Shown: positions 10,659 to 59,818 of the stretch, in pieces
Layout: every line of letters begins with the position of its first letter
Position numbering within the stretch: position 1 is the stretch's first letter
Assembly: GCA_963971425.1 (NCBI GenBank)
Contig: OZ020514.1
Location: 41,205,158-41,269,157, forward strand
From: Bryoerythrophyllum caledonicum
Taxonomy: Eukaryota > Streptophyta > Bryopsida > Pottiales > Pottiaceae
Reading direction: 5' to 3'
DNA length: 64,000 bases
Position numbers and translations under genes: made by a program
Notes under the pieces: generated by a model
Database searches by the model: none
What the model was told of the DNA's origin: nothing
What the model saw: the letters and a program-made list of their open reading frames with translations, nothing else

Positions 10659-11493
10659 TTATCCTCGACACGAGGATAATTCGAGATATTAAATATTTCA
10701 ACATTGAATTAGGAGAACATTCAATAATACCATTGTCAGGTATAACAACACACTCATGACTCAAACCTGGAGAAAACACACCAAATATACATAACACTTC
10801 AAACGAAGATCAACATTCAAAAAATTATTTATCAAATCCGGATCTGTTAAAATACCTCGTTAAATATGAAATTGCAAGGAACAAATCTTTTTTTATGATA
10901 ATAAAACAGACAGCATGAAGCCTCAGTGTGTTATCCTCAACTCGAGGATAGACGTGCAAATGAGAACTGAAAGACATGAGTGCATGAATGACATAGGCAT
11001 ATCACCACCTTACATAAATTTAAAAATCTGACGGTCTTAACTCAACATGCGTCTTCGATGACATTTAACTCGTTCTCTGTCATCCCCAATTTGAGAATAA
11101 CCATCATAAATTAAGTGATCCACTTATCAAATGTCATACTTTTGATATCCTTGACTCGAGGATAACACACAGGTAGAATATACCACCCATACTGGGCAAA
11201 GTCTGACGTGACATCAAATCCTGATTCAGCTGATGAATTCATAATTTACTCATTGTAATTTCATTGAATTCCAACGAATCAACATCCGTTATCCTCGAGT
11301 TGAGGACAGTTGTTCTTTCAATTTCATTCGCCTTTTTCTTACAGTACTCTATACTTTGGAGTTGGTGATTTCGAATGAACCAAGATTCAATAGTTCTATT
11401 CTCGAGTCGAGGATAAACCTCATAAGTAATGTCCTATAAGTGATGGATTTGATTCGATTATGTGAGTTCAGGTTATCGTCAATCCAAGGATAA
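10659..11493. repeat. Unit I palindromes, promoter cluster (six sites)
   Basis: Sites at 10659-10679, 10931-10950, 11146-11165, 11289-11307, 11398-11415 and 11473-11493 match half-site TTATCCTCGA, a centre base, then its reverse complement, with some mismatches. They lie upstream of the minus-strand gene, spaced about 80-270 bp apart, in sequence with no other repeat structure. Confidence 0.9.
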
Positions 11494-11963
11494 TAGTGCT
11501 ATAGTGATTCCGTAATATGCGGAGTGTCACAGATAGAGATTTTGTTTAGAGACAAACAAGAACCGCCGAAATGGTCAATAATACTGAATAACGTGCGATG
11601 GGGAGACCCATACTCTTGCACAGAAAGCAGAGGAGAAAACATTGAAATGGCCTATGCGACACAGGCAAATAGAAAATGAAAATGATTTCAACCAACCAGC
11701 AAGAAATACAACCACATAAGAAATACAACCACACTTTCACTCCTGCCCTAAAAAACTATCCAAAACATTCGTGTCCCAAAGAAGGACCTGGAATAATAAA
11801 AGCCAGTTCAGTATCTTACTGAGCCGCGGCAAGAGCTGAAGCACGGAAGTGGAAGCGGAGGCGAGGCATAGAGAGCTTCAGAAGAGGGAAGAGTTCGAAA
11901 TGAGTTTTTCCAGGGGAAAGTCAGAATGTTGTTCTGGACTTCGGTGCAAATAAAACGGAGGTG

Positions 11964-12014
11964 GGCGGGAAACTTGAAAGACTTTTTCCAATGGCTGCAT
12001 TTTTGGGCGGGAAA
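11964..12014. promoter_or_regulatory. Two E2F-type sites in the Unit I divergent region
   Basis: GGCGGGAAA occurs at 11964-11972 and 12006-12014; its reverse complement TTTCCCGCC is a textbook E2F/DP site. Two perfect sites 42 bp apart in an AT-rich stretch are unlikely by chance, and related sites sit in the same place in Units II and III. This suggests expression in S phase. Confidence 0.6.
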
Positions 12015-12019
12015 ACAAT

Positions 12020-13670
12020 GTATTTTTGTCACAACTTTTATACTGACCTTTTTAGATTGTCGAGTCACTTCAATTTAGGAATACGACCAACCGGAATAAG
12101 ACAAAATGAGATTCGTTTTGACAAAATTGGATATTCTAATGAATAAAAAACTGACAGTCATATTTGGTTTCATATGTAAAAAAGTAATAAAAAGTAACAA
12201 AAATCTGCTAAATTAGTTTTTTAAAAAATGATTAAAAAAAATAAGCCTTATAAAATCAGAATCGATTTAAAGAAAAGAACTTTTAAAATATTAAAAGTTT
12301 TAACCTATATAATTTGTTTTAGTATTGTTTTCAAATAAGAATTGAAGATAATTTAACTTTGTCTTTAAAAAATTGTATATTCATTAAAGCTTTCTTCGTT
12401 TCATTGATAAAAAATCAAATGTTTATCACTTTTTGATTATTTTTAAGTAAGATGATAAATGTTTTATGTCACACTCAAGAAGAAGAAGAACTTTACTTCG
12501 AAGCGCGTCGTGATTAATGTGTTTATTTGATCCACCACTAAGTCCATTTCCACCGGACTTATGTCACACCCATATTTGTTCTTCAAAGTTGACGAAGAAG
12601 GGGAAAAAAGATTAATTTTGTTCACAATCTTTAAAAATAAGTCGAACCTATTTTGAGCTAATTCATGCAATTTGATGACTTTCTAATTGAAGGTTATCCT
12701 TGATTCAAGGATAAAGTTTCCAATTATAAGTAGTAGTCAATTACAATGTATTGAAAATTAGAAAATGGTATAAAATTGTTATAATCACTAAATTGTACAG
12801 TGTAATATGATGTGAATTTGAAAACTATTCATGGATCATGGTGTCTATAATTCTTTATGTCCTTTTAATCTTATGACTTAAGTCTTATTGTGTTCCTTAG
12901 GATTGCTAATATAAAACTATAGTAAATCAAATACATGTAGTTTTCTTGAAGAACGACTAAAATAAAATTTCATTGGTTTGGTATGTTCAATGTATTTGTG
13001 TATCATAAGTTGTAGGAAATAGTTAATTGACAATTGCAACTTTAAATTTGAATGCAACTTGTGGACCACTATGAAAAATCAAGTGCAATGTCTTTAAAAT
13101 CCTAATTAATTACAAACTTACAATCTACAATATGAAATTAACACATATCAAATCAAAGAAAGACATATAAATGTAGTTTTATATAGATCCACTCAAAGAG
13201 TCCTAATTTGATGAACAATGATTCTAATAGTTGTTTACAAAGTTACAATTTAAAAATTATTTGAATTTGAAATTTACTATACAATAGTAATGAAAAATTA
13301 ATAAGATTCACATTGATTTCAAAATTTAAATAATTCTTAATACATTTATATGAAGTAAAATTTTATGAATTATCCAAAGAAACTAATTTGGAAATCATTT
13401 TCATCATGCAAGAGTATGCCAAAGTTGATTGTTTTCAAATCATTCTAGGTACAATCAAATTGACGGATGAAAACGTCCCATATTCATTCCAATTCACGAA
13501 CATTTATTAACCGAAAATTAAAGTGAAGCAATGCATCATTTCGGTATATTTTCTAAATTGAAAATAATTGGACATTCACCCATCGCGTCGCTTTAAAATT
13601 AGGTTTAATTTGTTCTCGAAAGAAGGCAAGTAGGTTCAAAATTCTTCACTTTTCCAAGAGTGAATGAGGG
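12020..13670. other. AT-rich spacer of Unit I with one palindrome
   Basis: About 1.6 kb of very AT-rich sequence without coding. A single Unit I palindrome lies at 12694-12714, with both arms changed together (half-site TTATCCTTGA). No other structure seen. Confidence 0.6.
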
Positions 13671-13678
13671 CGTGACAC

Positions 13679-14100
13679 CTCTCTCTCTCTCTCTCTCTCT
13701 CTCTCGCTCGCGCGCGCTCTTCTCCGCATCGTTCTCTTCCAATTTTCTCTCCTTCTCTCTTTGCTTGCTTCCCCTGTGCTCGTAAGGGTCTGTCATTGTA
13801 GTGTGTGAGAGTTGTGACCATGTGTGTGTCGTGAGTGAGTTGTGAGTGAGCGTGAGTTGTGAGCATGTGTGAGTTGTGAGTTGTGAGTCATTGTGTGTCT
13901 GTGAGGTGTGTGTGAGGTGAGGTGAGGTGTGTGTGAGGTGAGGTGAGATGTGTTAGTGTGAGGTGCGTGTGTGTGAGGTGAGGTGTGTGTGTGTGAGCGC
14001 GTGTGTGTGTGAGTGTTTGTGTGAGGTGCATGAGGTGTGTGTATATGAGTATAGGTGAGTGTGTGAGCATTAGGTGTGTGTCTATGTGAGCGTGAGTTCG
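13679..14100. repeat. CT microsatellite and TG-rich minisatellite upstream of Unit I gene A
   Basis: A CT run at 13679-13705 is followed by a pyrimidine-rich stretch to about 13770, then about 300 bp of GTGTGAG/GTGAGGTGAG repeats (13798-14095). Unit III has TGTGAGTTTG repeats at the matching place and Unit II a pyrimidine block plus GTGGGTGTGA-type sequence. The placement suggests a core-promoter Y-patch and transcribed 5' leader. Confidence 0.75.
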
Positions 14101-14585
14101 TGATTGTCAACGCTTAGGGTTTGAAAGTTTCTGGATTTAGATTCACTTAAGCAAGGGTTTTCATAGTGATTTGGAAAGATTTTCAACTATTTAGGTTTTG
14201 GAGGTTTAGACTGTCTCTGCTAGGGTTTTTGTTGTCGGTGTGTGAGGGTTTTCTGAGGCTTTGTCCTGAACAAAACCCTAATTTTATTAAGCTTCCCCAC
14301 ACATCGATTGTGCACAGCGACTTCAATTAAATTCAGATCTTCCTGTTGGTTTTTTTCCCATACACTTCAAGTAAGTATGTAATAACTTTCTCAATTCTGC
14401 ATTCCGCGTTTCAAGCTGCATCTAATAATGTGTTTATGACATTGTATATGTGCATGAGTGGAGAAGTGTCTGAAACCATTGTTTGTGAATTTTAATTGAT
14501 AATTTGTTTGTTTGTTTGCTGGTTTGTCTGCGTTTTTTTTGCAATGAACTGTAGATGGTAAATAAACAGCCATAATTGAAAACCG

Positions 14586-15063
14586 TTTATTCTCAAGCCG
14601 AGAATAAACTTGTTGTCATGGTTCACTGGTCATGTAAACGACGTCTGATTCACTAATATCTACTTGAATTTCAACCAATTTATCATCGACCCGAGAATAA
14701 ATACAAGAAAATACCATGAAAAGAAGTATAGTATCCTCGAGCCAAGGATAAGCTGGTTGAAATTCAATGATGAAAAGCACTTGGGACCCAAAATCATGCA
14801 GCATTGGGGAGCATGTGTAGTTTGGTCAACAGATCCTCTATAGTTGCAGAGGATTTCCAAATTCTCTAATGACACCAACTACCTGGACCATGCTCAGCCG
14901 ACTTGGGGAAATCAGATCTTGAGTTGCAAAAGAATATGGCTCAGCTCAGGACGACCGAGCTACCAGCAAGGAGAGGGTGCCACTAGAGGCAATGGTGTCG
15001 TGTTCGACGAGGAGAAATACACGGTAAGATTTCAGTCTAAATGTATCCTCGAGTCGAGGATAC
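14586..15063. repeat. Unit I palindromes, 5' end of gene A (four sites)
   Basis: Sites at 14586-14608, 14680-14701, 14732-14752 and 15043-15063. The first has TTTATTCTC paired with GAGAATAAA, and the last GTATCCTC paired with GAGGATAC: both arms differ from the consensus in matching ways. The last lies in the first conserved intron. Confidence 0.9.
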
Positions 15064-18000
15064 CAGTTGATACCAAACAACTTCCATTTTAACCCTCCTG
15101 CATGTCTTCTTCATTTTGATTGTTACTGTTTAATTATTTGACATGTAAGGGTTTCCTGAATTGCAGTTGTTCTCCAAACTTATCGTGAACCGCTTTCAAA
15201 ACATCGACCCCACAAAGAAAGGGAAGCAGGTGAACAAGTCGTCAGACATCACGAATGAGATCAAGGTGATTACATTGCCTGATGACATTTTCAAGCTGTG
15301 GGAAGATTTTCTTGAAAAGCACACGAAAGGCGAGATCATCAACCCGGACACGATGGTCATGTATAATGAGGCTAGAGGTTTCAGAGGCTCCTATCCATCG
15401 TGATTTTTTCAAGAGGTTGGGCCACCTCTCTGATAAGGACTTACGGGACCTGTTCACCTACTTGGTTGACAGTGAAGGCCCAAATGGGAACCCAAAAGTC
15501 ACGCTCCGTCAGACAAGCGTGGTTCACGGGTCCTGCTATCACTACGAGGAGTGGGCAGATCGCCGGAAGAGAAAGCGCATTGTCCTTCAGGAATTGATTG
15601 CAATTGATTCTTCCTTGAAGTTTTTGATGCCAGACGGGTCCACAAACGATGAGGTGTGGAAGGCGTGGAAGCAAGAACACTGCGTGTCTTCTCCGACATA
15701 CAATATGCTTCTTGTCCGGCTCGACAAGGTGTTCTTCTAAAAGGCTCACATATGCTGGGAAGCTTAAGCAAGCATCCCAGTTGATGGAGAAGTTTCTGAA
15801 CGTGTTTCCATTCTTTCGGAAGTTTTTGTACGTGAAGAGCCAGATCGACCCGGTTGTTATACCATCAAAGATTCGCAATTTGATGGGGAGAAAATGGAAT
15901 TCTCCGAATATTTTGATGCCCCTACGGAGGAGAGAGAGTGGTCCCTTGGTCTCCTTGACCTTCGACAGGTCCCCGGGTAGTCTTCTAAGGAGGAATCATC
16001 GGAAGAGCCCTACTTCTCTGCCTTTTTGAAGACCTTGAAGATGGAGAGAAGCAAACCCACCCTAAACTCTTCCACAATTTGGGTGTGGATAACCTCTTCC
16101 AAACAACAAGCCGTGCTAGCTGAAAAGAATGCGAAGAGAAGGATGTCCAATTAAGTGTGCCTTGAGTTGAGGTACATGCCATCCGCATACGCGCGACTCA
16201 ATTTGGGGGCATCGAGGTCGAAGTGTTCTTAGGTTTACCTGCTATTCCTCATACGGGACGACCATCCCGAGTCACCTTCGATACTGAAGATGGTTAATCT
16301 CAATTACTCTACTGTGGATACTCCATATCACACCGAGAAAAACAAGTATTTGGAGGCATGCTTCGTAGTTCACGGCTACGAGTTGCGGATGGAGTTCTAC
16401 CTTGAGCTCCTATCAGCCTTCTGCAAGCCCGGGAGCAGAGTTTTCAGAGTTTACTGTGGCTCCAAGCTGGTGCTGCCGAGTAAGGTAATTCACTTATCAT
16501 TACTAAGTTTATCCTCAGGTCGAGGATAAACCCGATGAATCTCCCATTTACGTTGTTTTGTATTTGATTGCTTTGTATCTTGCCTTTTCATGATTCCATT
16601 AGTTACTGTTTATTCTCGCGTCAAAGATAACTCTCATGCTAGGCTCTTGATTTCTGATTGCTTTAGTTTTCGTGTAAATAACGCATTAGTTTTGTCTTGC
16701 CTTTTGCAGATGTTCGGAACATCATTTTACGATCTGGTGGACAAGGACTATTGCAATTTATACAAACACAATACCAAGAAATTTGAGAAGTATGACATAA
16801 ATGACTTCCTCCATAAGGATTGTGAGTATGTTGGCCCCCTTCCACCGGATTCCAATCCTTCGAAATCAGCACCATCCCTGAACATTTCAGACTGCAGGCC
16901 CTCAAGGAACGCTGCCGCTTGCACAAGCTCTACACTGAGGACTTCAGCGACTGCAGCTGCAACAGCCTTAACCCCTTGAACCGAAGCTCCGATTCATTGG
17001 GCTAGAGCCAGGGCAGCCTCTGATGTTCGTCCATCAAGCCGCAAACAAAGCGATATCTCTGGCACTAGAATCCGTCTGGATTTGGCCCACATCAACAAAG
17101 TGCCTGCGGCGGATGCCGACCCTCCACTCTCGCGCCGATCTCCTCCTCCGCCGAATCCCTCGGAAGATTTCGACGAGGATACCCAGGAATTGGATATGTA
17201 TGGGAGTAATATGGGTGTGAACCTTCTGTCACTTGGACCCAATTTGGCTGAGCCATCTTCTCGATATGCTGATGATGAAGACGACGTTGAGGTGCTCCCT
17301 CATGAGGTTCCTTCCTCTGATATTTCCAGTCCACAAGGGGACGCCTTTGTTGTTTTGGAGCCTTCATCAAAGGAGGCGCCACAAGCTGAAGGGGGCATGA
17401 AGCGGGATGATGCCATCATCCTGCTTTCAGATTCTAGTGACAACAAAGGCCTCAGACCTCCGGTGACTGGCCCATCGAATGTTGATACTCCCGGAGAAGA
17501 ATGTCCTTTGCGATAGACTTTGATTGAGGCTTCCGACTTCTTTATCAACGCTCTTGGAGAAGCCCCGCCCCTTGGAGAGGTTGTGAAGTACGAACCTGGT
17601 GGTTATTTTTGTCACCATCTGGCGTACAAACGCCTAATGGAGGAGAAGGACAAGTAGGATATATAATGTTTGGAAGAGTCCAAGCGCAGGCAGGCAGAGA
17701 TGGGGGCTCCTCTTGAAAAGCAGAGGATGGAGTTTGCTTTGGAGAAAGAACGGATCGAGGCGACTATCAGGGCTGAGCTTCAGCTTTAAATGAAGGCAGA
17801 CCTCGCCCTCATGTACCTGAGGAGCCCTATGAATTCGGAGGCAACATCATCTGGTCCTCCTCCCTCTAAGGTGCCTACAAACACGAGTTATCCTCGCGTC
17901 GAAGATAACAAAGGTTCTAGGCTCTCTACTCCCTTGCAGCCTTCGGCTGCATTACCTTAGAGCTCGCCGTCTGTTTGTGTTCTTGAACCTTCCTCTGCTG

Positions 18001-18310
18001 ATCACCTGCAATCACATCCTGGGAAAGCACCTGTGTTCGCTCCCTCTGAGATGCCCTCTCCAAGAAGAAACCCTCCTATGGGGTATCTTCGACCCGAGGA
18101 TACGACGGGTGTCTGCCTACACCAGAACCCGCTTCCACTCCCTGCTCTCCTTCAATAGTCTGAGGAGTGCGACATAGAGGCTTGCATTGTGGACGTTCCT
18201 GTGGTGGCTGAGGATGTCTCTACGGTGGAGGATGATCGAGTGGATTACAAGCCGTCACCTGATGGAACTGGAAACGAAGCGCCTGATTCTGATAAGGTTG
18301 GCTAGCTTTT
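14755..18310 (+). pseudogene. Unit I gene A: ParB-like tail, methyltransferase-like region, disordered tail
   Basis: Aligned with Unit III. Exon 14755-15023 holds the end of the ParB-like segment (HWGACVVW, then AQPTWGNQIL); the part with the G-Q-H motif is missing or unrecognisable. Intron 15024-15166 (GTAAGA...TTGCAG). Exon 15167-16484 includes DITNEIKVITLPDD, LGLLDLRQVPG and the motif-I-like FRVYCGSKLVL just before the next donor. Intron 16485-16709. Exon from 16710 (MFGTSFYDL) continues into Ser/Pro/Asp-rich sequence, a coiled coil near 17640-17830 (EKQRMEFALEKERIEATIRAE) and a proline-rich tail. It is inferred to be a nuclear DNA-binding or DNA-modifying protein. Several stops and frame changes break it. 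Intron positions agree with Unit III, which supports the gene model. Confidence 0.6.
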
Positions 18311-19812
18311 TTTTCATCTTTTTTCAAGCTATTTTATGAGCTGCAGACGTATTTATTTTTGGAATGCCTACTCATAGTTTCCAGTAGGTCTTATATGGGT
18401 GTGTTGGACTGCAGGCATCAGATCCATATGAATTTTAGTGTACATTAGGCGGAGTGTGCATATTTGTAAAAGCACATTGCTTATAATTTATTGAATTGTT
18501 TAACCATTCAATTTTCTTTAATTGTTTTCTCAGATGAGATTGGATGATATTGTTCATCGACCTCTTGTATTGAAGCCTCGAATTGAGAATGATTTACAGA
18601 AATCGCTATGTGGGGGAGGAATCATGCAATCTGTAATAGTTCCTTTGCATATTGCTCAATGTACATTTCATCAGGTAATTTCCATTGACTTTAGTGTGTG
18701 TTCATCTTGTCCCAAGACTGTCTGCGGAGGAGTTTCTCCGTTGTCCTCAACCAGCGGCCACACAAGTGGCTTAATATTGTTCTGGATATTAATGGCATCA
18801 TGTGCGAGACAGAGCATGCCCTCGGGTTGTCTAGAGGCTCAGGGAGTCGAGCAACGTATTCTTGCACCGTCCCTACGTACATAGGTTTCAAAGTTGTGTA
18901 TACTCGCCCTGGAGTTCGTGCGTTTCTGGCGGACATCTGAAACATTACGAATTCTATTGTCGTCTGGAGCTCGATGAAGAAGTCCACTGTAGTTGAAATC
19001 TCGAAGTATCTTTTTTCAGACATGCCTTCTCTAGCTTTGGTTCTTGGTCAAGAGAGCTGTGAGAGAATTGAAACCTTGCCCAATAAGTTCGTGATGGATC
19101 AGAATAATTCAAGCAAGATGATCTTCTTGAAAACCCTGTCATCAACTTTATTTAGGCGCCCATTTGAGTCGATGGTCCTAGATTCGGACAACACCCTTCT
19201 CATCGACGATAGCTCGGAGAAGAGCGCCTGTAATCATATGGGAAATGCCATTTTTCTTTGTCCGTGGAGACATCAAGCTTGTGATGACCAGTTCCTTATT
19301 CAAGAACTTGTACCTTGGCTGCGACGTTTGGTTTCCGAATGCCATGTTGGACAATTACATGATTATGTTAATAATAATCGCATAGGGGTTCCACCCTTGG
19401 CGCCTAATAGTCTTTTTATGAAGTATATTGTAGATGGGATGGCGCTCTCAAACAAGAACGTTGGTTTTGTCTATAAAATTCCACATGGTTTTACTTCATC
19501 GCCTTCACAGTTTCAAAGGCTTCATTTTTGTAATATAATGGCATTTAGTATCAATATTGTTAACACCCATTTACATTTTGAATATAAAAATATTTTACAA
19601 CTTCAACAAGTTTTTTTGTAACTTATTGGCATTGTCTCCTGCTTTTCATTCCCTATGTGCTTCTATTCATTCTTCGGTCGGTCCTAGGATTTATCATTGT
19701 TTTCAGTATTTTTGTTTATCCTCTGGTCGAGCTTACTGTTTTTTTTGTGGATTCAAGGTAAAATGTATTCCTCCGGGCCTGGTTTCATATTTATCCTCGG
19801 GTCGAGCATGAA
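16508..19812. repeat. Unit I palindromes within gene A and gene B
   Basis: Good sites: 16508-16530 and 16609-16630 (both in the intron 16485-16709), 17887-17909 and 18083-18103 (inside the proline-rich coding tail). Half-decayed sites lie near 19715 and 19790, after the phosphatase block. All follow half-site TTATCCTCGA with up to three mismatches. Confidence 0.85.
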
Positions 19813-20674
19813 TTGGATTGTTGTGACTAATGTTATGTCCTACTCATGGCTTCTTCTATCTTGTGTGTCTTTCGGAGGTTGTGAAGGCTACCATCCCTCC
19901 TTTCTACAGGAGTTATCGTAGTAAACCACCCTCCAATTGTGGCTCGTTTTCTGAGTACTCTAGATCTCTTCCTGGAGGTTTTTCCCAATCCCACCATTCA
20001 AAGTCGTTTCTTATGTGCACTGCAACCGATGTTGCCTCTACTATCATGGACTTTTCTACACAGAAGGTTGATGATGGTGTTGTTGATAGCCCTCCTGAGC
20101 GGAGGGCCGAAATTCCTTGTGTGGCATCCCCTTCGCCACTCAAGTGGATGTGTGCTTCTATAGAGCTTGTTGGCGATTGCACTCCTAAATGGCAGCTCTA
20201 TGTTAATGGTGCAATTGGTGAAACGAGGTGAAGCAATTGATAATTCAGCCTTCAACTATTCATGTCCAGCCTTTTCCTACCCCAACTAAGCGGAGGCGGC
20301 TTCCTAGTTCAAGATCTAAAGGTATTGTAGGAGTTAGTAATCCTCCCATACGTTCAACGGGATTGCATACTAAATCTCTCGATTTACAGCCTAGATCTTT
20401 GAGATCCACATCTTCACAGTTTCGTCGGAATTCCCTATGCTTGAGTGGAGGTGGTGGTTCTGTGGCTGATAGTGGTCGGTGCCATCAATCACGTCATTCA
20501 CCTCTGCTGAAATCCGTGAATTATTCGGAAGTGGATGATTACTATAAACCCTATTCTCAGAGGGAGGAAATTATGATTGGGTATGCGAAAGTGAAAGCGC
20601 AGGAGGCTTTGCTTTTGCAGACAAGAGGAGGTTGTTCAACCATTCCGTCTAGTGAAGGGGGTATTGCTAAGTAG
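18534..20674 (+). pseudogene. Unit I gene B: FCP1/SCP-like phosphatase domain and Ser/Pro tail
   Basis: 18534-18680 is an exon after TTTTCTCAG. The phosphatase block follows: LNIVLDINGIMC (motif I; the second Asp of the DxD pair is Asn), YTRPGVRAFL, NSIVVWSSMKK (motif II), MIFLKTLSS (the conserved Lys) and TLLIDDSSEKSACN (the DD motif). FCP1/SCP enzymes remove phosphate from Ser/Thr of proteins such as the RNA polymerase II tail; the Asn makes catalysis doubtful. Coding tails follow at about 19870-20231 and 20228-20674, rich in SP/TP and basic residues, ending near 20674; the first matches Unit III (MDFSTQKVDDGVVDSP). A stop falls just after the motif-I region. It may be the 3' half of gene A rather than a separate gene. 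Confidence 0.6.
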
Positions 20675-20736
20675 GAACAATTGTGTATGCTTCAGGAGTT
20701 CTTCCATGTTTTGTTATAGAGACGATAGAATAGATC

Positions 20737-21660
20737 CTATTGTACTATAAATAGAAATTTATAATGAATATGTGTTGTAGGTGTTGTTGCCAAATTGGCC
20801 ACATCCGCCTTACACATCTTGGTGAAGGCCACTTGGTACAAGTTGTGTTCTCGAGGTGTTACCGCAAGTACATCTCCATTTGGTGCCTTCATTGAGCACC
20901 CGTCCACATTGAATTGCACCTTCATACCGCTCCACACAAGCTTGCTCATTGAGACCAAGTTTGCTTGCAACTTGGACACATAGACGACGTCCTTGATTGT
21001 CATCCTCTTCAAACGCCCCCTAACAAGCACTTTGACAACAGTGGCAGTGACTCTAATGGCATCCACAATACTTTCATTACCTAGGTGCACGTTGCATGAT
21101 GAAATTTCCTCATATGTATGAAATGCCGCCCGACGTGGTGTCATGTGTTTTGTGACGTCCGAATCTAAAATACACTTACAAATGGACCTGGAATGAGGTC
21201 CATTTAGAGTTGCAATTGGGTAGTCATCATCTTCCTTGGCAAGGTTGGGACTCTCCTTTTCCTTTGCTTGGTTAGCATTGTCCCGCTCCTCTTTCTTCGG
21301 CTTAAAGCAATTTCATGCAACATGGCCCGGTTTGCCACAATTGTAACATACCTTGGTCTCGCCACGTGAAGATGAGTTGCTCCCTTGTTTTGCCTTGATA
21401 CTTAGTTTGTATCATCGCCATGCGTCTCCTTCTCCTTGCGCTTAGACTCTTCGTGCATCATTCGTGCAACCACAAACTCCATGGTGAGATCCTTCATGTG
21501 CAACGTCTCCAAGGTGGTGATCAAGTACTCAAATAAGGGCGGCAGGCTCTCAAGAAACGTCATTACCACATCTTCATCTTTGGCGGGTACCTCTGAGCAA
21601 TTGAGTTGATCTGCAAGTGCCTTCACTTGGTTGATGTAGGGGTTGAAGCACACTACGGTG
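20737..21660 (-). mobile_element. Ty1/copia fossil fragment (gag to protease)
   Basis: On the minus strand: a UBN2-type gag segment (QVKALADQLN), a zinc knuckle region near 21310-21350, and a protease/GAG-pre-integrase region (NVHLGNESIVDAIR, SKLQANLVSMSKL). No LTR, integrase or reverse transcriptase is attached. It is an old, broken fragment with several breaks. It begins about 60 bp after the last Unit I coding sequence. Confidence 0.85.
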
Positions 21661-23552: not shown

Positions 23553-23599
23553 ATAAGTTATGGGCCCACTCATGTGAGTTGCGTGTGTAGTATTTGGGT

Positions 23600-44923: not shown

Positions 44924-45074
44924 GGAAACTTTTCCACAGCCACTGAAAAACTGCAATTTCAAAATCTCAACGGGAAACTGAATCAACTATTTCCCGGTTG
45001 ACTAAAATAAGGAAGAGTACCTACCTCGAATATACTCGCACATGCGAATATTATACACGATTTTACGGTAACGC

Positions 45075-45110
45075 TAAGGGTTAGGTTTAGGGTTTAGGGT
45101 TTAGGGTTTG
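45075..45110. repeat. Short interstitial TTTAGGG repeat
   Basis: About four near-perfect plant telomere-type repeats, with diverged words continuing to about 45160. Confidence 0.85.
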
Positions 45111-45159
45111 GAATTTTGGTTCAGGTTTAGGGTCCTTGGTTTAGGTGGAATCTTCTTAT

Positions 45160-49484: not shown

Positions 49485-49617
49485 TTTAGGGTTGTTTGTG
49501 TGAGTTTGTGTGAGTTTGTGAGAGTTTGTGTGAGTTTGTGTGAGTTTGTGAGAGTTTGTATGAGTTTGTGTAAGTTTGTGTGAGTTGCTGTAAGTTTATG
49601 TGAGTTTCTGTGAGCAC
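49485..49617. repeat. TGTGAGTTTG minisatellite, Unit III leader
   Basis: About twelve copies of a 10-bp unit TGTGAGTTTG with minor variation, preceded by words such as TTTAGGGTTT (telo-box-like) at 49389 and 49478. It sits at the same relative place as the Unit I tract at 13.8-14.1 kb. An apparent splice donor (AAAG then GTAAGT) at 49707 suggests it is in a 5' leader exon. Confidence 0.8.
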
Positions 49618-49849
49618 GTCGACTCTGAAACGGCCGTGCTCGGAGGATTGACGTGAACTGGGAAAAAGATTTGCAGCTCTAGTAGTCGGATTTCTGAGTT
49701 TTAAAGGTAAGTGAACTCATTCACTCTTGTATTCCTTTTAATATATGTGTAGTATTGCTTTTGATATAATGTGATGAATCATTATATATGTGTAGCATTG
49801 CTTTTCATGTATGTGTGAGCACGTAGATGAAATTGTGTATTCAATGTGG

Positions 49850-50225
49850 TGGTTTGAATGTGCTGGTTTGTGCTGGTTTGTGGTTGTCTGTAGTGATTTG
49901 TGCTCGTTTATGCTAGATTAAATGTGTTGGTTTGTACTGGTCTCAATGTGTAGGTGAATGATAGTTTCAATGTGCTCGTTTGAATGTGCTGGTTTCAATG
50001 TGGTGAATTCAATGTGCTGAATTCAATGTGCTGATTTCAAAGTGTTGATTTCAATGTGAATGATTTCAATGTATTCGTTTATTTGTGCTGGTTTGTGCTG
50101 GTTTGTGCTGGTTTGTACTGGTTTATTTGTGCTGGTTTGTGCTGGTGTCAATGTGCTGCTTTGTGCTAGATTCAATGTGCTAGTTTCAATGTGCTGGTTT
50201 CAATGTGTTGGTTTCCATGTGCTAC
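49850..50225. repeat. CAATGTGCTGGTTT minisatellite
   Basis: Irregular copies of TTCAATGTGCTGGTTTGTGCTGG-like 10-14 bp words, about 30 in all, within the presumed 5' leader intron (49707-51378). No equivalent seen in Unit I. Confidence 0.75.
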
Positions 50226-50432
50226 TTTAATTGATTTTGTGTGTGTGGGTTTGTTATTGTTTTTGCAAGACGTCTAGTTCCAGCAGAATTTGTTTGGGAT
50301 TAAAGTTCATAAGCAATGGCTGAAAGGTGAAACCATAGTCACCCATGAGCCCTAAACCTTGAGCCTTGAATATCATATAACGAAAGACACATCTTCATAA
50401 ACTGCAATAAATTAGCTTTTCAATGAACACAA

Positions 50433-51310
50433 TTTAGCTCGACTCGAGCTAAAGTGGGCCCTCTATATTACACCATTGGCCACACTTTAGCTCGAGTCGA
50501 GCTAAAGTGGGCTCTCCAGTGTGCTCTTTTGGCTGCACTTTAACTCGACTCGACGTAAAGTGTGGCCAGTAGTGTACTATTGAGTTCCACTTTAGCTCGA
50601 CTCGAGCTAAAGTGTGGCCCATAGTGCATGTTGGAGGACCACTTTAGCTCGACTCGAGCTAAACTGTGGCCCAGAGTGCACAGTTGAGGACAACTTTAGC
50701 TCGACTCGAGCTAAAGTGCAACTCAATAGTGCACTCTGGAGATCACACTTTAGCTCGAGTCGAGCTAAAATGTACAATAAAATGCGTCTTTGGTCGCGCT
50801 AAAGCCCGACTCCCGCTAAAGTGATCATAATTTCTACGCTCAAACTCAATATTTTAAACAATCTAAATCTTTTCATCAAAGCCAACACACTTTAGCTCGA
50901 ATCGAGCTAAACTGTAAAACAAAGGACCGAATGCACATATCGAATACCTCTACGTTCAGACCTAATGACAATCCGAAAGTAAAGTTTGACGACGCAATCA
51001 ATGACCTAACACTAGTCTACTTCTCGTTCACTTCTCACAAGTGTGCAAGAGCTTCAGTCTCGCTCCAACCATTCGAGAACCTCGAAGAGCAAGGTTCGTG
51101 AGTGATTAGAGCAGAATTGAAGCTCTTCCATAGTTCTGAGTGTTAAATGAGAAGTAGCCATGAATTGAATTTACAGATCTAGGAAAGACTTCTTAAGGAA
51201 TATTGAATGTTTTAGAGCTATACTGATATACATTCTAGGTAATAAAACATTAACTCGAATCGATCTAAAGTAATCGGTTACACTTTAGCTTGACTCGAGC
51301 TAAAGTGTAA
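50433..51310. repeat. Unit III palindromes upstream of gene A (about ten sites)
   Basis: Sites at 50433-50453, 50483-50509, 50536-50562, 50588-50614, 50640-50666, 50692-50719, 50746-50772, 50888-50914 and 51278-51310, with decayed ones near 50790 and 51250. Most have arms extended to CACTTTAGCTCGA. The first seven are spaced about 50 bp apart, almost evenly; the last has arms of 16 bases. Confidence 0.95.
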
Positions 51311-52824
51311 CCTCTCTCTCCTAGTTGGATCATCGATGCATCAATCTAATATGCTTACTCGCTTTCGTGTGTGTGCAGATCTGAGAGGGACATGATGGTG
51401 ACTTAACTTCAGCACTTCTTCCAGCCAAAGCCCGTCGACATTGATGATGACATTGGCGACGACAACAATCACTTGGATTGTTGGGAGCTCAAAGACCCAT
51501 CGATGACACTGAAGTCGACGCTGCTGTGGGCAACGTTTACGGACAATCTTGTGTTTGGTCAGACCTTCGCTGGTGATATCGCTGTACCCCAGCACACCGA
51601 CTTCAAGACCAAAATTATTGATGTAGTCCACGAAGATAACGATCACGTTAAGTTGTCGTGTGAGACAACCAGTAAGTCCGTAGAGCCGTATTTGTTTACT
51701 ATTGTAGTAGACAATAGTTCATCTCCCTTCTGTATCAACGATTTAGTCGAATCACTCAGGGGGTCCAAGTTTGATGAAATAGTGGCTCAGATCGACCACG
51801 AAATCTCTATTAAAAAATGGGAGACTAGTAGTGGTCAGCCGCTGAAAGCAAAGGCTGTAGCTAATAAACTCCGCGTCATTCTATCAAGAATGAATACCTT
51901 TGCCGCTCTTGATAAGGCAAAAAATATCGCGGCAAGACGCCCGGTAGAAATTTCAATGGTTTCGGGGGCCGTGACCGGTAGCGAGGATATGAGTCAAGCG
52001 TCGGTCCCGGTTAGAACACCTAGTGCAAGGACAAGTCGAAGCACCTTGCGCAACACGCTGTCTGCTTCCCCGTCAAGAAGCGCTCAGCTGCCAAGAAGCC
52101 GGAGACCTCTTCGAGAAAGAAGTCGAAGCTCGTTTCAGAGGAGGAGTTGGCAACCTCGATGGCCTCTGCACTCTCGGAGCTCCCTTTGGCGCTCGGGTTC
52201 GCAGAGGCAATCAACTACAACAACGTCCAAGAGATTTACCAAAAATTCTGGACGGAGTGACAGAGTTGCTTCTTCAATGGAGACAGAGAGATGAAGATCA
52301 AGCTTGACGTGATGAGGCTGCATAATGCACCACCAGAGTGGACGATCCGTGCATTCGAGCCTCGGGGCATAGAGGAGTTAAAGCATTACTACCTCCAAAT
52401 GCCGGACAAGACGGAGAAGCAGACTCTCTACGTCATGCCAAAGCTCGATGCTATGCTGACGACTGTGGAGGAGCTCAGCGACTGCGACTTCTACATCATC
52501 AACGGCCAACACAACGTTGCTGCATCAAAGGAGATGATCAACGGCAACGTCCCAGAGGTGATGAGAAGGCACTTCCGAACTTGGCTGTGTTACATTGTCT
52601 GGACGAAGGATCCGGAGAAGCTGAGAATGATTTCCGCGTATTATAATCGCGTGAATCACTTGGTCCAGTTCAAGCCAACCTGGGCAACGAATATCCTTGG
52701 CTCCCGTGCTTTGTGGATCCAAGCTGGGAGACCAATGCCGAAGCACTCCGCTACAGGCGTTCGCGGGTCTCACAAGTCAGGTCGAAGAACGGCAGTGGAG
52801 ATTGCCAATGACAAGAAGTTTGAG

Positions 52825-53051
52825 GTAATATATCTTAACCAAGGTCATGCACTTTAGCTCGACTCGAGCTAAAGTGCATGCTTGCTGAATATCTGTATTA
52901 TGTTGTGTTTAGAGTGGACTCGCTTTCAATGTCTCCTCTTAGGTTGCAAGTTAGCTCGACTCGAACTAACTTGCAGAAGTTGCACCCTATTAGACATGTT
53001 TAATTTTCTGCTTCAATTTTAACTCAATCAGCCCTCTTATGTTCTGCGCAG
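52825..53051 (+). other. Conserved intron of gene A, with two palindromes
   Basis: Donor GAG then GTAATA, acceptor TGCGCAG. Units I (15024-15166) and II (37194-37304) have an intron at the same place. It holds palindromes at 52846-52880 (35 bp, arms of 17 perfectly paired around one base) and 52945-52975 (arms TGCAAGTTAG and CTAACTTGCA). Confidence 0.75.
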
Positions 53052-54419
53052 CCATTTCTTAACTCCGTTCGTGAGCGCTTTGCTATGATCGACGTTGCTA
53101 AGAGCCATGCGGAGCTCAAGAAAGCCGGAAAGGCGAAGGAGCTCTCTATTACCAACGAGGTGAAAATCATCACCTCGTCCGATGAGACCTTCAAGCTCTG
53201 GTCCGATGTCATCTCTTCGGCAGCTCACGGGGACCTCATCAACGTTGATTCAACATTGACGCCCATGGCAAAGTTCATGGACACCAAGTCTTGGATGCCT
53301 CAGAAGGATGGGGTTCTGACGCGCGAGTTCTTCAAGTTTCTCGGCTACATGACCGAAGCCGATCACGCAAAAATGTGCAAGCACATTCTCAATCGATCAG
53401 GGCCATCTCGGAAACTGCTCTACGTTGAGGTGGTTATAAAGCAACCGACTTCTGTGCCGGAGGATTGCTGCAGCGCCAGGGACTGGGTCGATCGAAGGAA
53501 GAGAAAGGAGGTCGCTCGGATGGAGCTGCAGTTGATCAGGCCGGAGTTGGCCTTCTTTAACAACTCTGGAGCGTATAGTCGTTCCAACTGGCGGACGTTT
53601 AAGAAGAACTACAACGTCAGCAAGGCCTCAAAGCGTGCCCTTCTGGATTGGGGTCCTCCGGATTTGTATTACAAGGACTCGAGACAGACGCAGTTTCGCA
53701 ACTGCAAATGTGAAGATCTCTCTCCGTACGCTAAGGAGTTCTTCAGAGTCTTCATCGATGTGCGATCGCGGTTCGTTCGACCTCAAGGAGCTCTGCACTT
53801 TCGTTCATACAAGGCCGCGATGAATTCGCTCGGCACGTGGCCTTCGGATTCGTGGCGCAACCTGGGCTGCAACGTGAAGCTCGGCATCATCGACTTCCGG
53901 AATGTTCCTGGCTTCTCTGGGAAGGCAACATCGTCGTTGGAGAGGCCCTTCTTCAACGAGTTTATGACGATGTTCGCATCGAAAGGGCAGCCTCCCCTCA
54001 CCAATCTTCCAGCCTGGCTCTTCATTTGCGGCGACGAACAGCCACACCTTCAAGTGACAGCGTTTGCTGAGGGCCCGTCGTTGTGCCATGCGTACGATGT
54101 GCTGCACTTGAAGTATCTTCTCTCCGAGAACGAGCACTTGGGAGGATACGCGCCTAAGAGCAACAACGCTCTCGACCCTGTTTGCCTTCTCTTTCTCTTC
54201 AAGAAAGAGCTCACGCAGATCCCGGCAGTGAAAAAGACCTACGCAGCTCCGGAGCATGTATTGCACACCAAGCTGCACAAGTACAACGAGCTTTTGTACA
54301 GCATGAACATGAACGAGCTGAGGATGGAGTTCTTCATCAAGGTCCTGGAGATGTTCTTCAAGAAGGGGGAGTCAGTTGTCTAGCTGTTTGGCGGGACGAA
54401 ATTGCTCATTGCGAGTGTG

Positions 54420-54706
54420 GTAAGTTACCCTACAGTTTAGCTCGAGTCGAGCTAAATTGTTGATACCTCTCTCTGTCTGTGCATGGATTGTTTCAGAGAG
54501 GTCGTCTCTTATGCTTATATAGCATTGCACTTTAGCTCGACTCGAGCTAAAGTGCCGGCATATTTTTTTATGATTTTCTTACAGTCGTTCAATCGCGTCG
54601 TTTCCTTTTAAGTTGTAATATCTGACTTTAAGTATCAGTGTTTCTCTGTATTCACTTTAGCTCGATTCGACCTAAAGTGTTACTTGTTAAATCCATTGGT
54701 GTGCAG
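54420..54706 (+). other. Second conserved intron of gene A, with three palindromes
   Basis: Donor GTAAGT right after the motif-I-like segment; acceptor GTGTGCAG before ATGTTGGAT. Unit I has the equivalent (16485-16709, acceptor TTTTGCAG before ATGTTCGGA). Palindromes lie at 54432-54460, 54527-54555 and 54653-54679. Confidence 0.75.
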
Positions 54707-55433
54707 ATGTTGGATCTGGAGGCTTTGTGCATCTCCCACGACACCAATGAGCACGACCTCGAGGACGCCATGGAGGTCGCGTTGACATTGGATTGGGCCG
54801 ATTTTGTTGTTGGTGCGTATCACGTCAACGCGGAGATCTTCCCCGAGCTTAGAGAGGCCATTGCCAACGGGAAGGGAAAAGCAATTATTGACCTCGGCGA
54901 TGAGGAGGAAGATGAAGAACCGAGCGCCTTGGTTGTGTGTCCGAGCTCAAGCACGGCCACTCCGGATGAAGAGTCCCATGACGATTTCAATACCGCCACT
55001 TCGCCGGAGTTTCAGAGTGGCTCTCAATCTGAAGCAGGAGACACAATCGTTTCCTCGCGGCAACGACTCGACTTCCCAGAGTTGGATTCTTTGGAGATTT
55101 TTGACAGGCCTCACTCCGCTCCCATCTTGGGTGGGTCATCCGCTCGGCCCGCTGCCAAGAAGAGGAAAGTCGCTAGCGCGAGCGACCACTCTCCGTTGGC
55201 TTATGCGAGCAGTGCACAGGATGACAGTAGGTTGATCTCCCTCGAGAAGAAGCTCGAGGAAGAGGCCACCCGGATGAGGTTGATGGAGCAGCGGCTGGCG
55301 GATCGTGATCAGGAGCTCACGCATCTGTAGCGGAGGCGTGACAAAGAGATGAAGAGGGACCAAGACCAGAGGCATGCCGAGATGATGCTCATGATGTAGA
55401 GATTCATGTCGGCTAATTTGCCTGTAGCCACCA

Positions 55434-57380
55434 TGTGGGAATCCGTTCCCACATAATTCGGGATATAGCCTTAAAATCCGGCTAGATATCAAATTTAATA
55501 AAAAAATTAGTAAATAGAATATTATAGTAGGAGGCAAATAGGTAGAAATAAAAAATAAGGAATCATGGTCCAACCGGAATCCTTAAATAGTGCTATTAGA
55601 GTACTTAGTATTAGTGCGGATGTCCGGAGAAATCCGGACTATTTTAGGGGTGATCCGGATTCCGGAACTGTCATCATGAAACGGACCTCATCCGACAGCC
55701 GTTTGTTCCTCAAGACAACTCTAAGAGCAGATCTGGTTGGCAGGGAGGTCGGCAACAACACCACCAGCAGAAGAATCTCCAGCAGCAATTTCCGGATCCG
55801 GAACTCAGTAGCCGGAGGAGACTCCGGAGAAGACAGACGCCGGGAAGAAGATGGAGGAATCACCTAGGCGTAAGAATAAGAAGACACCATAGTTAGGAGT
55901 AGTATTAGAAAATCCCTAGTCCCTTTTGAATTAGTAGCGATTAACGATGGGGCTCAGGATTGCACCCAGCTACTAACAAAGGAGACTTAGGGAAGTTTGC
56001 ATCCGGAAGGCCTTAGTCTAGAAAACTGTGAGTCCGGAAGGGATTTCCGGACTTCAGGGAATTTCCGGATTTCAGGGAACTTCCGGAAATCAGGGATTTC
56101 CGGAATTGAGGGATTTCCAGAATTTCCGGATTTCCGGATTTCATGATTTCCGGATTTCCGGATTCCGGAAGGCGGGAGACGGAAACCGGAAACCGGAAGC
56201 CGGATTCCGGATTAGGGTATCCGGAATCCGGATCTCAGATCCATAAATTTCGGACCTGAGATTTGAAATCCGGATTTTCAGGGATAAGATCTTTTAGGAT
56301 AAGATTTTCCGGATTCCTCGCGGATAAGATGGAGTTGAGGTTAGGAACTTAGTTAGTACTTAAAGGATGAGTCTTGGGAGGCTCATCATCTTGTTTCCTC
56401 TAGCTGAAAACATCTTAGCCTTTGAATATATTTTTCTATATCCTAGTGTTGAGCGTTTTTTTGTGAAGAACGGATCCATTGTGGTTTGTATTGTTGTGGA
56501 TAGGTTCTATCATAGTGAGCATTATTGTGTTTGTAACTTGAGGTAACCGGTTGGGACTTGCATTGGGAGATCGCCCGGAAGAGTTGGAGGAGAGGTTAGA
56601 TAGAGTCTGACGATCCACAGGGACCGGAAGTAGCCTGGAGGGGGAGGGAGGGTATTGCAGGAGTGAGCCTTGTAGCTCCCAGGGCACGGAGAATCCGTGT
56701 GAACCCGGATTCCGGTTGTGGCCGGAATTTCCCCTTACAATAGAGCAAAAAGCCTGATGTGTATGTCTAGAAGGAGTCCTTGTTGCAAACCGTAATACTC
56801 ACTTGGTTGAATCACGACAGCACTTGCCGGAATGTCGTTGTAGTCTAGACTTATCTCTGCGTGACCGCGTCCGGATGGCCATCCGGATGGTGTGAGAGTG
56901 TGGATCTAGCAGCAGCAATCAACCACCGGTTAGCGCAGTAGGGAGAGTGGGTGTCTAGCCACTTTAAGTCACAGGACAGTGGGGAATCCGCCCACTTACA
57001 CAAAACAGGATCAGTGGCACCCGGCCACTAGCTTAAAAACTCCGGAAGAGGCTCCGTCAAAAGTTATCCGGAATCCGGAAGGATCCGGAATCTATTTTTA
57101 AAATCCGGAATCCGGAAGGATCCGGTATCTATTTTTAGGATCCGGAATCCGGAAGGATCCGGAATCCGGAATGATCCGGAATCCGGAAGGATCCGGAAAT
57201 AGTTGTAGAACAAGTGAGAATGAGGTTCTGGTGGATTGGTGCTTAGTGTAAGTGGATTATTTAGTGATTCTAGAAGATACAGCAGGTCTCTGTGGGAACG
57301 AAACCGGAGCGGTTACTTTGGAAGCATTTAGTGACGATTAGGTGCTTTCCGGAGGAATACTGTCTCTACAAACTGCAACA
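55434..57380 (+). mobile_element. Solo LTR, CCGGA-rich family, inserted in gene A
   Basis: It starts TGTGGGAATCC and ends CAACA, flanked by the 5-bp direct repeat CACCA at 55429-55433 and 57381-57385. About 1.95 kb, with no internal coding. It is packed with TCCGGA/ATTCCGGA words (especially 56020-56260 and 57050-57200). Its right 1.4 kb matches 27.2-28.625 kb, the nested element in the copia fossil. The intact ends and perfect target repeat suggest a fairly recent insertion followed by LTR-LTR recombination. Confidence 0.8.
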
Positions 57381-57720
57381 CACCACAACACCACCCGCAG
57401 TAAATACTGCGATTCCCCAGTCTCCCCTCTTAGCGGAAGAAGGGACTGGGAGTCTGTCCCGCGGTTTGCTGCTGCCGTCTCCGGCGGGTTCCTCCCCCGT
57501 CTCCATGGGGGGTCAATCGCCTCATGTTTCCCCATTGCTGCCGACCCGCCCCTCTTCCCCTCCAAAGTCGCCCGCTCGGGACGTATCTATCGCAGATGTT
57601 CCCTGCTCATCGTCAGGTTAGTGTAACGTAGTTGCGAGTGTATAGAGGCAGAACATTTTGTAAATGTCCAATTTTGTACTCCAGTATTTTTTTTTGTTAA
57701 TATTACGGTGCTCAGCGAGC

Positions 57721-59818
57721 ACTTCAGCTCGACTCGAGCTAAACTGCTTGACATTTGACGGCTTCGACTTGTATCACTGTCCTTTGTGCGCATCGGCTGA
57801 TAGGTTGAAGTTGTTGAATTTTTCTGATCTAAGTTTCGGTGATGACGCGATCGCTCACCCAGTCATAGATGAGGTCGTCCAATCTGCAGTCCCGGTCGTA
57901 GAAGAGGTCGTCTAAGCTTCGGCCGTGCTCGTAGACGAGATCAATCATGATTCTTCTGTCCCGGAGCCACCTCTTCTTGACTATGAACCATGCCCCAAAA
58001 TGGTTGTGAGGCTCTCGGAACCCCTTGACACCATGCAAGGTTCATTAGGAACGATTGGAGTCCGAGGCGAAATGCTACAAGACGATGAAGTTCTCGAGGT
58101 ATTCTTCTGACACTTTTCACACTCCACTCTCCCCCTCCCATGACGTCTGGCCCCGTTTGCCTCTTTCAATCTACATTTTGTTGACCCGTCGTTGTCAATG
58201 AATCTATAGTAATATTGTTCGTTCTTCTGGCGTTTCCGAACCAGATCTGCGAAGCATCGATAAGTGGTGCCAGTAATCTTGAAGAAATACCTAGAGTCCT
58301 ATCAGATTTTGAGGGCAAGTGGTTGAATGTTGTGCTAGACGTCAATGGGATTCTCTGCACGCGTGAGCCTTCGTGGCATGCCATGGGATCCAAAAACTTT
58401 GACTCGTCCATTCACTCGGCTTCGCATCCGGCGGAAGTTGGCCCTAAACTAGTCCGAGTACGCCCTGGTTGTGCTGAATTCCTCACGAGGTTGTCTAAGA
58501 TTGCCACCATTACGATCTAGAGTTCGATGATGGAATCCACAACACGTCAGATATGTAAATATCTTTTTCAGCATAGTTCTTTGTACCCTCTCAGGATCTT
58601 TGGTCAGGAGAGTTGCGATAGGGTGCCCGAGCGTAGAGTCGGTAACAGAACAATCTACATGAAGAAATCTGGCACTTAGAAGGACATCTTCTTGAAGACC
58701 TTATCGAACCATCTCTTCAATAGGTTGGGTCGTGAGTATACTCCGGCGAATACGCTTGTCATTGTCGACAGCCCGATTAAGCATATGCTCAATTTGCCGG
58801 AGAACGTCCTTCTTCTTCCATCATGGTCGCACAAACATGATGGTGCGAGAGATGATTCTGTATTGCTGGAGGAATTGCTGCCATATCTCTCTGGCCTTCA
58901 TCTGTTTCCGGGTGGCCTTACGTAGTATCGGGCTGAACATCCCTTGGGCCGGGAGATGTTCTATAATGATCAGAAGACGTGTGGTCAGTCTTTGAGTATC
59001 TGGAACGCAATCCAAGCGTCTCAGAATCTCCGCTCTTAATGTCGTTGGAAACGCTTAGATGCTTATTACACTTTAGGTCAGATAGAGCTAAACTGTATTG
59101 ATCGACTGAAGCTCTATTTTGTAAATTTTGTTGGACCATTTTTCATGTGTATATTTTTTTTGATAAATGAAACCGAGATGTTTCACCACTTTGTTTGTTT
59201 TGGGGAATGGATACTTACTTTTGATGGAATGTCGTTCTGTTTTGAATGATTGGGGTTTTCCTCTGTTGTTATGAGATATGTGAGCGTCACTTTGGTTGAA
59301 AATTCTACAGGACTGTGACTGTCGTGCTTCCGTGGATTCTTTGTTGGGCCCAGAGGAGTTCATCCTTTCCCTTCGGAGTAAAGGGCTCTTCTTGCACTCT
59401 GCTGCAACCGCGCAGTCAACCATGGATTATTCGACCATAACAATGGACGACGGAGTTGTCAAAAGCCCTATTGCACGGGAGCCAATTCATGAAAAGGACA
59501 ATTCACCTTCGCCGCAATGGCCTCGTTCAGTTCCAGGGTCCCCGTGTCTAAATCCGGATAATTGTACTCCTGCAAAGCATACTCTCTATGACGGTTTAGG
59601 GGATGCTACTTCCCATCACTTGCTCGAGGTGCGTGATATGTTGACCTCCTAGTTATTACACTATTGAGTCGTTTTGGCCTAGGCAACTTTTGTTTGTTGT
59701 TGAGCTACATTGCACTCATGTAGTTTTGATTCATTTGATTTTGTTTTTATTAGTTGGATGGTAAATGTTGTCTATGGATCTTCCCTTCTGCAGTTTAGCT
59801 CCATTCGACCTAAAGTGC
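57721..59818. repeat. Unit III palindromes in gene B introns
   Basis: Sites at 57721-57745, 59070-59096 and 59791-59818, with a half-site near 59868. They are more decayed than those upstream and fall between coding blocks. Confidence 0.8.

Follow-up and report, generated by a model that had tools for sequence, protein, structure and literature searches.

This study concerns a stretch of 64,000 nucleotides (the window) from contig OZ020514.1 of the moss Bryoerythrophyllum caledonicum and, within it, two families of short palindromes that populate two large DNA transposons. Plant-like nuclear DNA makes up the window, in which spliced genes occur alongside Copia fragments and a hAT-like gene. 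The two transposons, unit I and unit III, are related, and each carries a DUF7869 gene together with a divergently oriented second gene, here called gene 2 (Table 1). Pfam profile PF25273, which defines DUF7869, matches the unit I protein at E 3.5e-43 (above cut-off) and the unit III protein in two pieces (E 3e-12, over the cut-off, and 5.7e-4, under it). The two proteins are 38–79% identical over pieces with E <1e-4, bar one at 29%, and the two gene 2 products share a mean of 37% identity (this value and those given below for gene 2 and the outside contigs are sums over BLAST pieces). Gene 2 of unit III was assigned by homology to unit I and to two contigs from outside the window, C243 and C269 (see below).

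Unit III is flanked by a 4-bp target duplication, AGCT, at 40185-40188 and 60454-60457. It sits in a Copia-like gag sequence (recognized by eye) that continues on both flanks, and its empty site was deduced from a second Copia-like copy, at 23970-24961, against which the two flanks were aligned. The word AGCT also occurs inside the unit III half-site, probably by chance. CACTA ends were considered for this element and rejected in view of its AACACC termini, its 4-bp duplication, and the internal position of most of its palindromes; Sola1 elements likewise make a 4-bp target duplication. For unit I, position 20778 was used as the right limit in all counts, and neither its left end nor the first coding part of its gene 2 was found when looked for.

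Perfect palindromes with a one-base centre and 10-bp arms occur 15 times in the window and not once in any of 5 dinucleotide shuffles, and 14 of the 15 belong to the unit I or the unit III family; with up to one broken pair allowed, the window holds 32 compared to 0–5 in shuffled sequence. We defined a site as a match to the family consensus with at most 4 of 20 mismatches. By this definition, 16 sites match the unit I consensus TTATCCTCGAnTCGAGGATAA, and every one falls within 7772-20778 (shuffled mean 0.1); the unit III consensus TTTAGCTCGAnTCGAGCTAAA is matched by 31 (shuffled mean 0.0), none of them outside 40189-60453. Neither family thus has a single site in the window outside its own unit. 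Our hand-curated lists hold 18 and 35 sites, compared to roughly 17 and 30 in the original prediction, which had assigned one private palindrome family to each of three units. When 5 mismatches are allowed, the unit I pattern gives 20 matches, and the 2 that fall outside unit I are both unit III sites; at 6 mismatches it gives 39, of which 20 lie outside and 16 of those are unit III sites, while the unit III pattern gives 36 with only 1 outside. Rfam searches of the window gave no match at gathering score.

The half-sites TTATCCTCGA (unit I) and TTTAGCTCGA (unit III) are the same at positions 1, 2, and 6–10 and differ at positions 3–5, so that both words share the centre CTCGAnTCGAG and also TT/AA near the outer edge; the families are thus not unrelated as the wording of the original prediction had implied. 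A sub-type with an altered centre (TTTAGCTC-TA/CA...) is found in unit III at 40.7–40.9, 46.6, 48.3–48.4, and 59–60 kb. Privacy is confirmed for units I and III but not for unit II, for which about 8 sites had been proposed. Its half-site GATCAAAGGA occurs only 4 times, 3 of them at 35210-35434, in a GATC-rich stretch of 680 bp that contains 21 of the window's 257 GATC words and where we found no clean palindrome family. Counts for gaps of 2, 4, and 6 show a modest excess over the largest of 40 shuffles (7 versus 6, 8 versus 6, and 9 versus 7), and unit II has a single weak match to gene 2 (E 0.001).

Within units I and III, the palindromes lie mostly in the leaders and introns of both genes and also between the divergent genes. 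With exons delimited manually on the basis of homology and GT-AG borders, the centre falls in sequence judged as coding for 2 of 18 sites in unit I, where such sequence takes up 60% of the length (binomial 2.8e-5), and for 1 of 35 sites in unit III, a weak one at an exon edge, where it takes up 45% (binomial 2.2e-8). Non-coding placement is thus the rule with few exceptions, whereas the claim that sites are dispersed singly and not in tandem has to be given up: 19 of the 35 unit III sites form arrays with regular spacing (47 bp for 5 sites, 52–54 bp for 7, and 69–73 bp for groups of 3, 2, and 2). In these arrays, the palindromes are more alike than the spacers between them (0.94 versus 0.37–0.52, 0.82 versus 0.35–0.61, and 0.78 versus 0.44–0.66). 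Departures from consensus at the two central CpGs go to CpA/TpG in 13 of 14 cases in unit I, as decay of methylated CpG would give, and in 7 of 25 in unit III.

Table 1. Transposon units, genes, domains, and palindromes in the window, with one related domain from an outside contig.
Feature	Position	Strand	Description
Unit I	7772..20778		transposon related to unit III; right end AACACATATTCATTATA.. at ~20776, similar to that of unit III
DUF7869 gene, unit I	7872..10570	-	585-aa open stretch 8409-10166
Palindromes, unit I	10659..11493		7 sites, DUF7869 gene leader
Palindrome, unit I	12694..12714		between divergent genes
Gene 2, unit I	14371..20680	+	introns 15024-15166 and 16485-16709; frame broken
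Palindromes, unit I	14587..14751		3 sites, gene 2 leader intron
Palindrome, unit I	15043..15063		gene 2 intron 2
Palindromes, unit I	16509..16630		2 sites, gene 2 intron 3
Palindrome, unit I	17888..17908		in apparently coding sequence
Palindrome, unit I	18083..18103		in apparently coding sequence
NIF-like domain	18695-19400		late exon of gene 2
Palindromes, unit I	19716..19811		2 sites, after NIF-like exon
Unit II	34737..35760	+	GATC-rich, behind GTAAGG, which resembles a splice donor; next to a doubtful, decayed relative of gene 2
Unit III	40189..60453		DNA transposon, 20.3 kb; 29-bp terminal inverted repeats AACACCATATTC.., 28/29 identical
Palindromes, unit III	40505..40857		4 sites (40505 weak, 40692, 40765, 40837), 3' of DUF7869 gene; three spaced 72–73 bp
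DUF7869 gene, unit III	41165..43960	-	frame broken in places; probable transposase
Palindromes, unit III	44050..44444		7 sites, DUF7869 gene leader; 5 at 47-bp spacing
Palindromes, unit III	46564..46653		2 sites, 69 bp apart, between divergent genes
Palindromes, unit III	48311..48400		2 sites, 69 bp apart, between divergent genes
Gene 2, unit III	49707..60160	+	divergent from DUF7869 gene; frame broken
Gene 2 introns, unit III	49707-51378 (leader), 52825-53051, 54420-54706, others	+	GT..AG borders
Palindromes, unit III	50433..50911		9 sites, gene 2 leader intron; 7 at 52–54-bp spacing
Palindromes, unit III	51249..51304		2 sites, end of gene 2 leader intron
Palindromes, unit III	52853..52970		2 sites, gene 2 intron 2; one with 17-bp arms (52846-52880)
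Palindromes, unit III	54436..54676		3 sites, gene 2 intron 3
Palindrome, unit III	57723..57743		in gene 2 intron
NIF-like domain	58245-58900		late exon of gene 2
Palindrome, unit III	59072..59092		after NIF-like exon
Palindromes, unit III	59794..59879		59794 in last intron; weak one at 59859
NIF-like domain	L008 1368-2219		outside contig

When the DUF7869 protein of unit I was searched against genome contigs of bacteria and archaea, a single relative emerged, CADCWO010000071.1 (C71), from a bin that bears the title “uncultured Synechococcales cyanobacterium isolate AVDCRST_MAG81”; a sister bin, MAG94, is listed from the Avdat site in the Negev Desert (PMC8619395). C71 has an open frame of 963 residues (PF25273 E 1.7e-42) that is 65–97% identical to the unit III protein over 6 of 7 pieces and 49% over the N-terminal one, compared to 50% on the main piece and 36–44% on smaller pieces for unit I. 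It bears the unit III palindrome at 34, 114, and 489 and, in weaker form, at 3573, 3821, and 4071; a DUF7869 gene but no gene 2 was seen on it. Searching the bin for the words brought up C243 and C269, in which gene 2 exons stay open over long stretches and the palindromes belong to a third family, TTCAGCTCGAnTCGAGCTGAA, of the form TTCAGC-TCGAnTCGA-GCTGAA (family IV). A further contig, C74, encodes a gene 2 product 71% identical to that of unit I and bears the unit I palindrome, with two perfect copies. The gene 2 products of C243 and C269 are 69% identical, whereas other gene 2 pairs reach 28–40%. A gene 2 exon searched against the bin found the same three contigs and no others.

These four contigs show that the word goes with the protein lineage. 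The same palindrome family joins close protein pairs, namely unit I with C74 and C243 with C269 for gene 2 and unit III with C71 for DUF7869, and all 27 outside sites match the single family of their contig. Family I has 16 sites in unit I and 5 in C74, family IV has 8 each in C243 and C269, and family III has 29 sites in unit III plus 2 ties with family IV and 6 in C71; the rest of the window has none of any family. The words are kept even though the genes of matching-family copies are only 74–76% identical in DNA. None of the 27 sites lies in coding sequence, which makes up 53–66% of the contigs (hand-drawn limits). Gene 2 intron 2 carries sites in unit I, unit III, C74, C243, and C269, and intron 3 in unit I, unit III, C243, and C269 (C74 ends before it), so that both introns hold sites in every element where they were recovered, with words differing by lineage. 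Half-site positions 3–5 read ATC, TAG, or CAG depending on the lineage. Across the whole bin, 18 of 20 occurrences of CTCGAnTCGAG are on the four contigs, compared to 7 of the reversed pattern anywhere in the bin; two control contigs with a single CTCGAnTCGAG, C7 (all) and C64 (10 kb of 69.6 kb), contained no such palindrome family. Given that the word found in a homologous intron changes from lineage to lineage and that palindrome family and protein lineage go together, the proposal that these are element-specific recognition sites gains indirect support for units I and III, though not for a family in unit II.

The four contigs are likely eukaryotic contamination of a cyanobacterial bin, because DUF7869 was found only in this bin among 386 genomes of its phylum (and in 0 of 14 control genomes) and because neighbouring contigs have introns. 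Contigs L001, L008, L009, and L020 of the same bin combine introns with giant-transposon genes and are apparently eukaryotic contamination. Scans of viral contigs with the unit I DUF7869 protein, unit III and C269 gene 2 pieces, the C71 protein, and three exact palindromes revealed no relative.

The centre common to all lineages, which has TCGAnTCGA unbroken in 14 of the 16 sites of C243 and C269, is what one would expect if a host factor such as a transcription factor, an insulator, or a silencing protein bound the sites and the lineages merely exploited or evaded it. We consider this very unlikely since it leaves unexplained why the private outer arms recur in matching lineages from a second source.

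A role in RNA would also be conceivable, with the sites acting as intron hairpins in splicing, export, or protection from silencing, as most of them lie in leaders and introns. In unit III, pairing of each site with its own arm exceeds all 5000 permutations (0 of 5000 reach the observed value), and at least 4 extra complementary pairs flank 10 of 35 sites, whereas none of the 18 unit I sites is so extended and own-arm pairing there is ordinary, without covariation. Flank runs of at least 3 complementary pairs are found at 9 of the 27 outside sites (around 0.4 expected). The unit III flanks (e.g., at sites 51284, 52853, and 52950) vary between sites yet are self-complementary within each, with arms of up to 18 bp. 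Sense-strand G-T versus A-C mismatches in the arms, which could betray RNA pairing, number 15:16 (unit I) and 7:8 (unit III) in the hand lists and, at up to 4 mismatches, 11:16 in unit I, 5:7 in unit III, 5:1 in C71, 0:2 in C74, 0:0 in C243, and 0:1 in C269; for offsets 11–14 the ratios are 11:2 (unit III), 3:6 (unit I), 0:1 (C71), 0:1 (C74), 0:3 (C243), and 2:1 (C269). The values for C71 and for the offsets of unit III would suit hairpins, but within the arms G-T is not favoured elsewhere, a weak objection in that neutral decay also gives parity, and the mismatch types give no clear RNA signal. Since sites are also present in the stretch that separates the two genes and beyond the 3' end of the DUF7869 gene, and unit I lacks covariation, a function in RNA seems decidedly unlikely to us.

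Fold-back copying or RNA pairing are possible causes of the self-complementary flanks. The former belongs to an account in which the sites are very small palindromic repeats devoid of function, multiplied through tandem duplication and fold-back copying; the arrays of 47, 52–54, and 69–73 bp and the variable flanks, which fit fold-back birth or palindrome self-correction, are readily understood in this way. However, such repeats would hardly be conserved above their spacers, spare coding DNA almost completely (3 of 53 sites in the window, 0 of 27 outside), or keep their words between copies as diverged as those of the matching families, and we regard this account as the least probable of all.

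The putative DUF7869 transposase or a partner might bind the sites to assemble the transposon ends, as with the subterminal repeats of CACTA (En/Spm) elements, which are clustered at the ends and bound by the element protein TnpA. Both systems have element-specific short repeats, and 7 of 35 unit III sites are indeed near the ends (0.3–0.7 kb from the left and 0.6–1.4 kb from the right), a lone half-site at 40251 lies around 60 bp inside the left end, and C71 couples DUF7869 with the unit III word. Unlike in CACTA elements, though, internal leaders and introns dominate here: 28 of the 35 sites lie at a distance of over 2.7 kb from either end, and the three contigs with gene 2 bear sites in its introns. 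Another lone half-site, at 26479, is outside any unit. On balance we view end-binding by DUF7869 as unlikely.

The late exon of gene 2 encodes a NIF (SCP/FCP1-like phosphatase) domain that is significant in C243 (E 2.4e-14) and just under cut-off in units I and III (E around 2e-4; unit III 2.5e-4). The acidic motif reads DxN in the copies of C243, unit I, and unit III, while active NIF members carry DxD, so this may perhaps be an inactive phosphatase. The middle region of C243 resembles N6_N4_Mtase with E 0.033 for the exon, 0.0063 for that exon fused to the following one in line with the expected splicing, and 6.9e-4 for a chosen segment, all three below the curated cut-off. Alignment of three gene 2 rows with 16 bacterial methylases by hhalign gave a probability of 14.7% (E 0.0018), and the catalytic motifs are poor and look degenerate by eye. 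An early exon contains a GQH motif reminiscent of ParB-type proteins (by eye only). PDB sequence searches returned no methylase match and nothing useful, tblastn of gene 2 pieces against phages and plasmids listed 17 records at E 1–7 without a match, and comparison with PHROGs gave weak matches only and with NCBIfam none. A foreign insert rich in CCGGA and bearing repeats interrupts gene 2 of unit III at approximately 55460-57420; a diverged second copy at 27540-28625 is about 74% identical in DNA over two stretches.

Bacterial ParB-methylase fusions, such as a 512-aa frame (G017:C214), have a GH motif region followed by a methylase in one chain (by eye), though the profile match of gene 2 to them is not significant. 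If gene 2 derived from such a fusion, its product could read the private arms as a dimer and mark or mask the GANTC/TCGA centre in its own introns, with the palindromes as a self-identification code that would give every lineage an address and a mark of its own; GANTC is the target of CcrM/HinfI-type methylases. We regard this scenario as rather doubtful. Strict conservation of a GANTC centre is not borne out, as only 46 of the 74 sites in all six elements have it (unit I 4/16, unit III 22/31, C71 3/6, C74 3/5, C243 6/8, and C269 8/8), and the degenerate look of the methylase motifs does not help either.

The explanation that we favour, with about even confidence, is that the element encodes a sequence-specific DNA-binding protein, most likely the gene 2 product, for which the palindromes serve as dyad operators. 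The protein would bind the word of its lineage as a symmetric pair, with the shared centre CTCGAnTCGAG providing affinity at the level of the family and half-site positions 3–5 the private address. Sites in both leaders, in internal introns, and near the ends would let the protein coat its own element, and this coating may control or protect expression in a form of self-recognition, possibly as anti-silencing or DNA marking. Through the leader sites of both genes the element would govern its own regulation, while private words would spare the host genome and other lineages. The choice of gene 2 over DUF7869 as binder and the effect of binding are what we infer, and methylation or a self/non-self function would be a further step of the same kind. 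Taken by sequence, the pattern suggests that each transposon lineage keeps its own recognition address.

Several points weigh against this explanation. Gene 2 has no proven DNA-binding domain: the ParB-like region is without Pfam or hhalign support (probability <1%), N6_N4_Mtase found no match in the C269 exon, the unit III exon, or the unit I stretch, and structure models were useless at a mean predicted local distance difference test score (pLDDT) of 35–36. Both genes are present in units I and III, and in C71 only DUF7869 is seen, so the DUF7869 protein could bind instead. The comparison comprises only six elements, for which the match of palindrome family and protein clade is 1 of 15 possible pairings by our own reckoning, so that what carries weight is how nearly exactly the 21-bp words are shared. 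Furthermore, the outside contigs are eukaryotic by deduction, and a plain protein dyad would not need the self-complementary extension of the unit III flanks.

Elsewhere in the window, remains of a hAT-like transposase lie left of unit I at 4371-6440 (E 2.7e-4 for hAT dimerisation, narrowly below the cut-off), next to a tandem repeat rich in GC (6685-6808), and a RING-finger-like open frame (by eye) at 2203-2595 is possibly a host gene.

As the nearest working model for the palindromes we take the VANC proteins of Arabidopsis VANDAL elements, which carry DUF1985 and DUF287 and are reported to bind family-private tandem motifs of 8–9 bp, arrayed in one orientation in introns and upstream, and remove silencing (PMC5735166, PMC10398659). 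VANDALs likewise have a short motif of their own for each family, dense in non-coding sequence including introns and often in arrays, and they combine a conserved transposase with a variable, family-specific second protein as in our units. In contrast, the sites described here are dyads of 21 bp built around a common centre, neither VANC text uses the word “palindrome”, and the scanned pieces of our elements had no Pfam match to DUF1985, DUF287, or a VANDAL transposase but DUF7869 instead. A second parallel is Sola1-1_Ec32 of Ectocarpus, a 21.5-kb giant DNA transposon described, in the excerpts that we consulted, as encoding a ParB-like and N4C/N6A DNA methyltransferase chain on the strand opposite the transposase; the authors suggest that this accessory protein binds and modifies its own element and cite Iyer 2011 and Petroll 2025 for algal cases (PMC12477816). 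Our elements resemble it in size class and in the accessory gene divergent from a putative DUF7869 transposase. Gene 2 also has a GQH motif and a faint N6_N4_Mtase match, but the methylase match is below cut-off, ParB is without profile support, and a NIF-like domain is added. The same excerpts mention no target sites. By sequence features, gene 2 would fit the Ectocarpus accessory protein, without this being proof.

Literature searches found no paper under the name DUF7869, nothing relevant by title on palindromic motifs and transposons, and no report of lineage-private palindromes in such elements within the mostly open-access literature covered, which did not take in Iyer 2011 and Petroll 2025. 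If the palindromes are targets of such accessory proteins, they would provide matched pairs of word and protein from several lineages that are directly testable, and the shared centre would isolate the positions that determine specificity. These elements would then represent a second independent case of the VANC logic, in which private addresses let a transposon act on itself while the host is spared.

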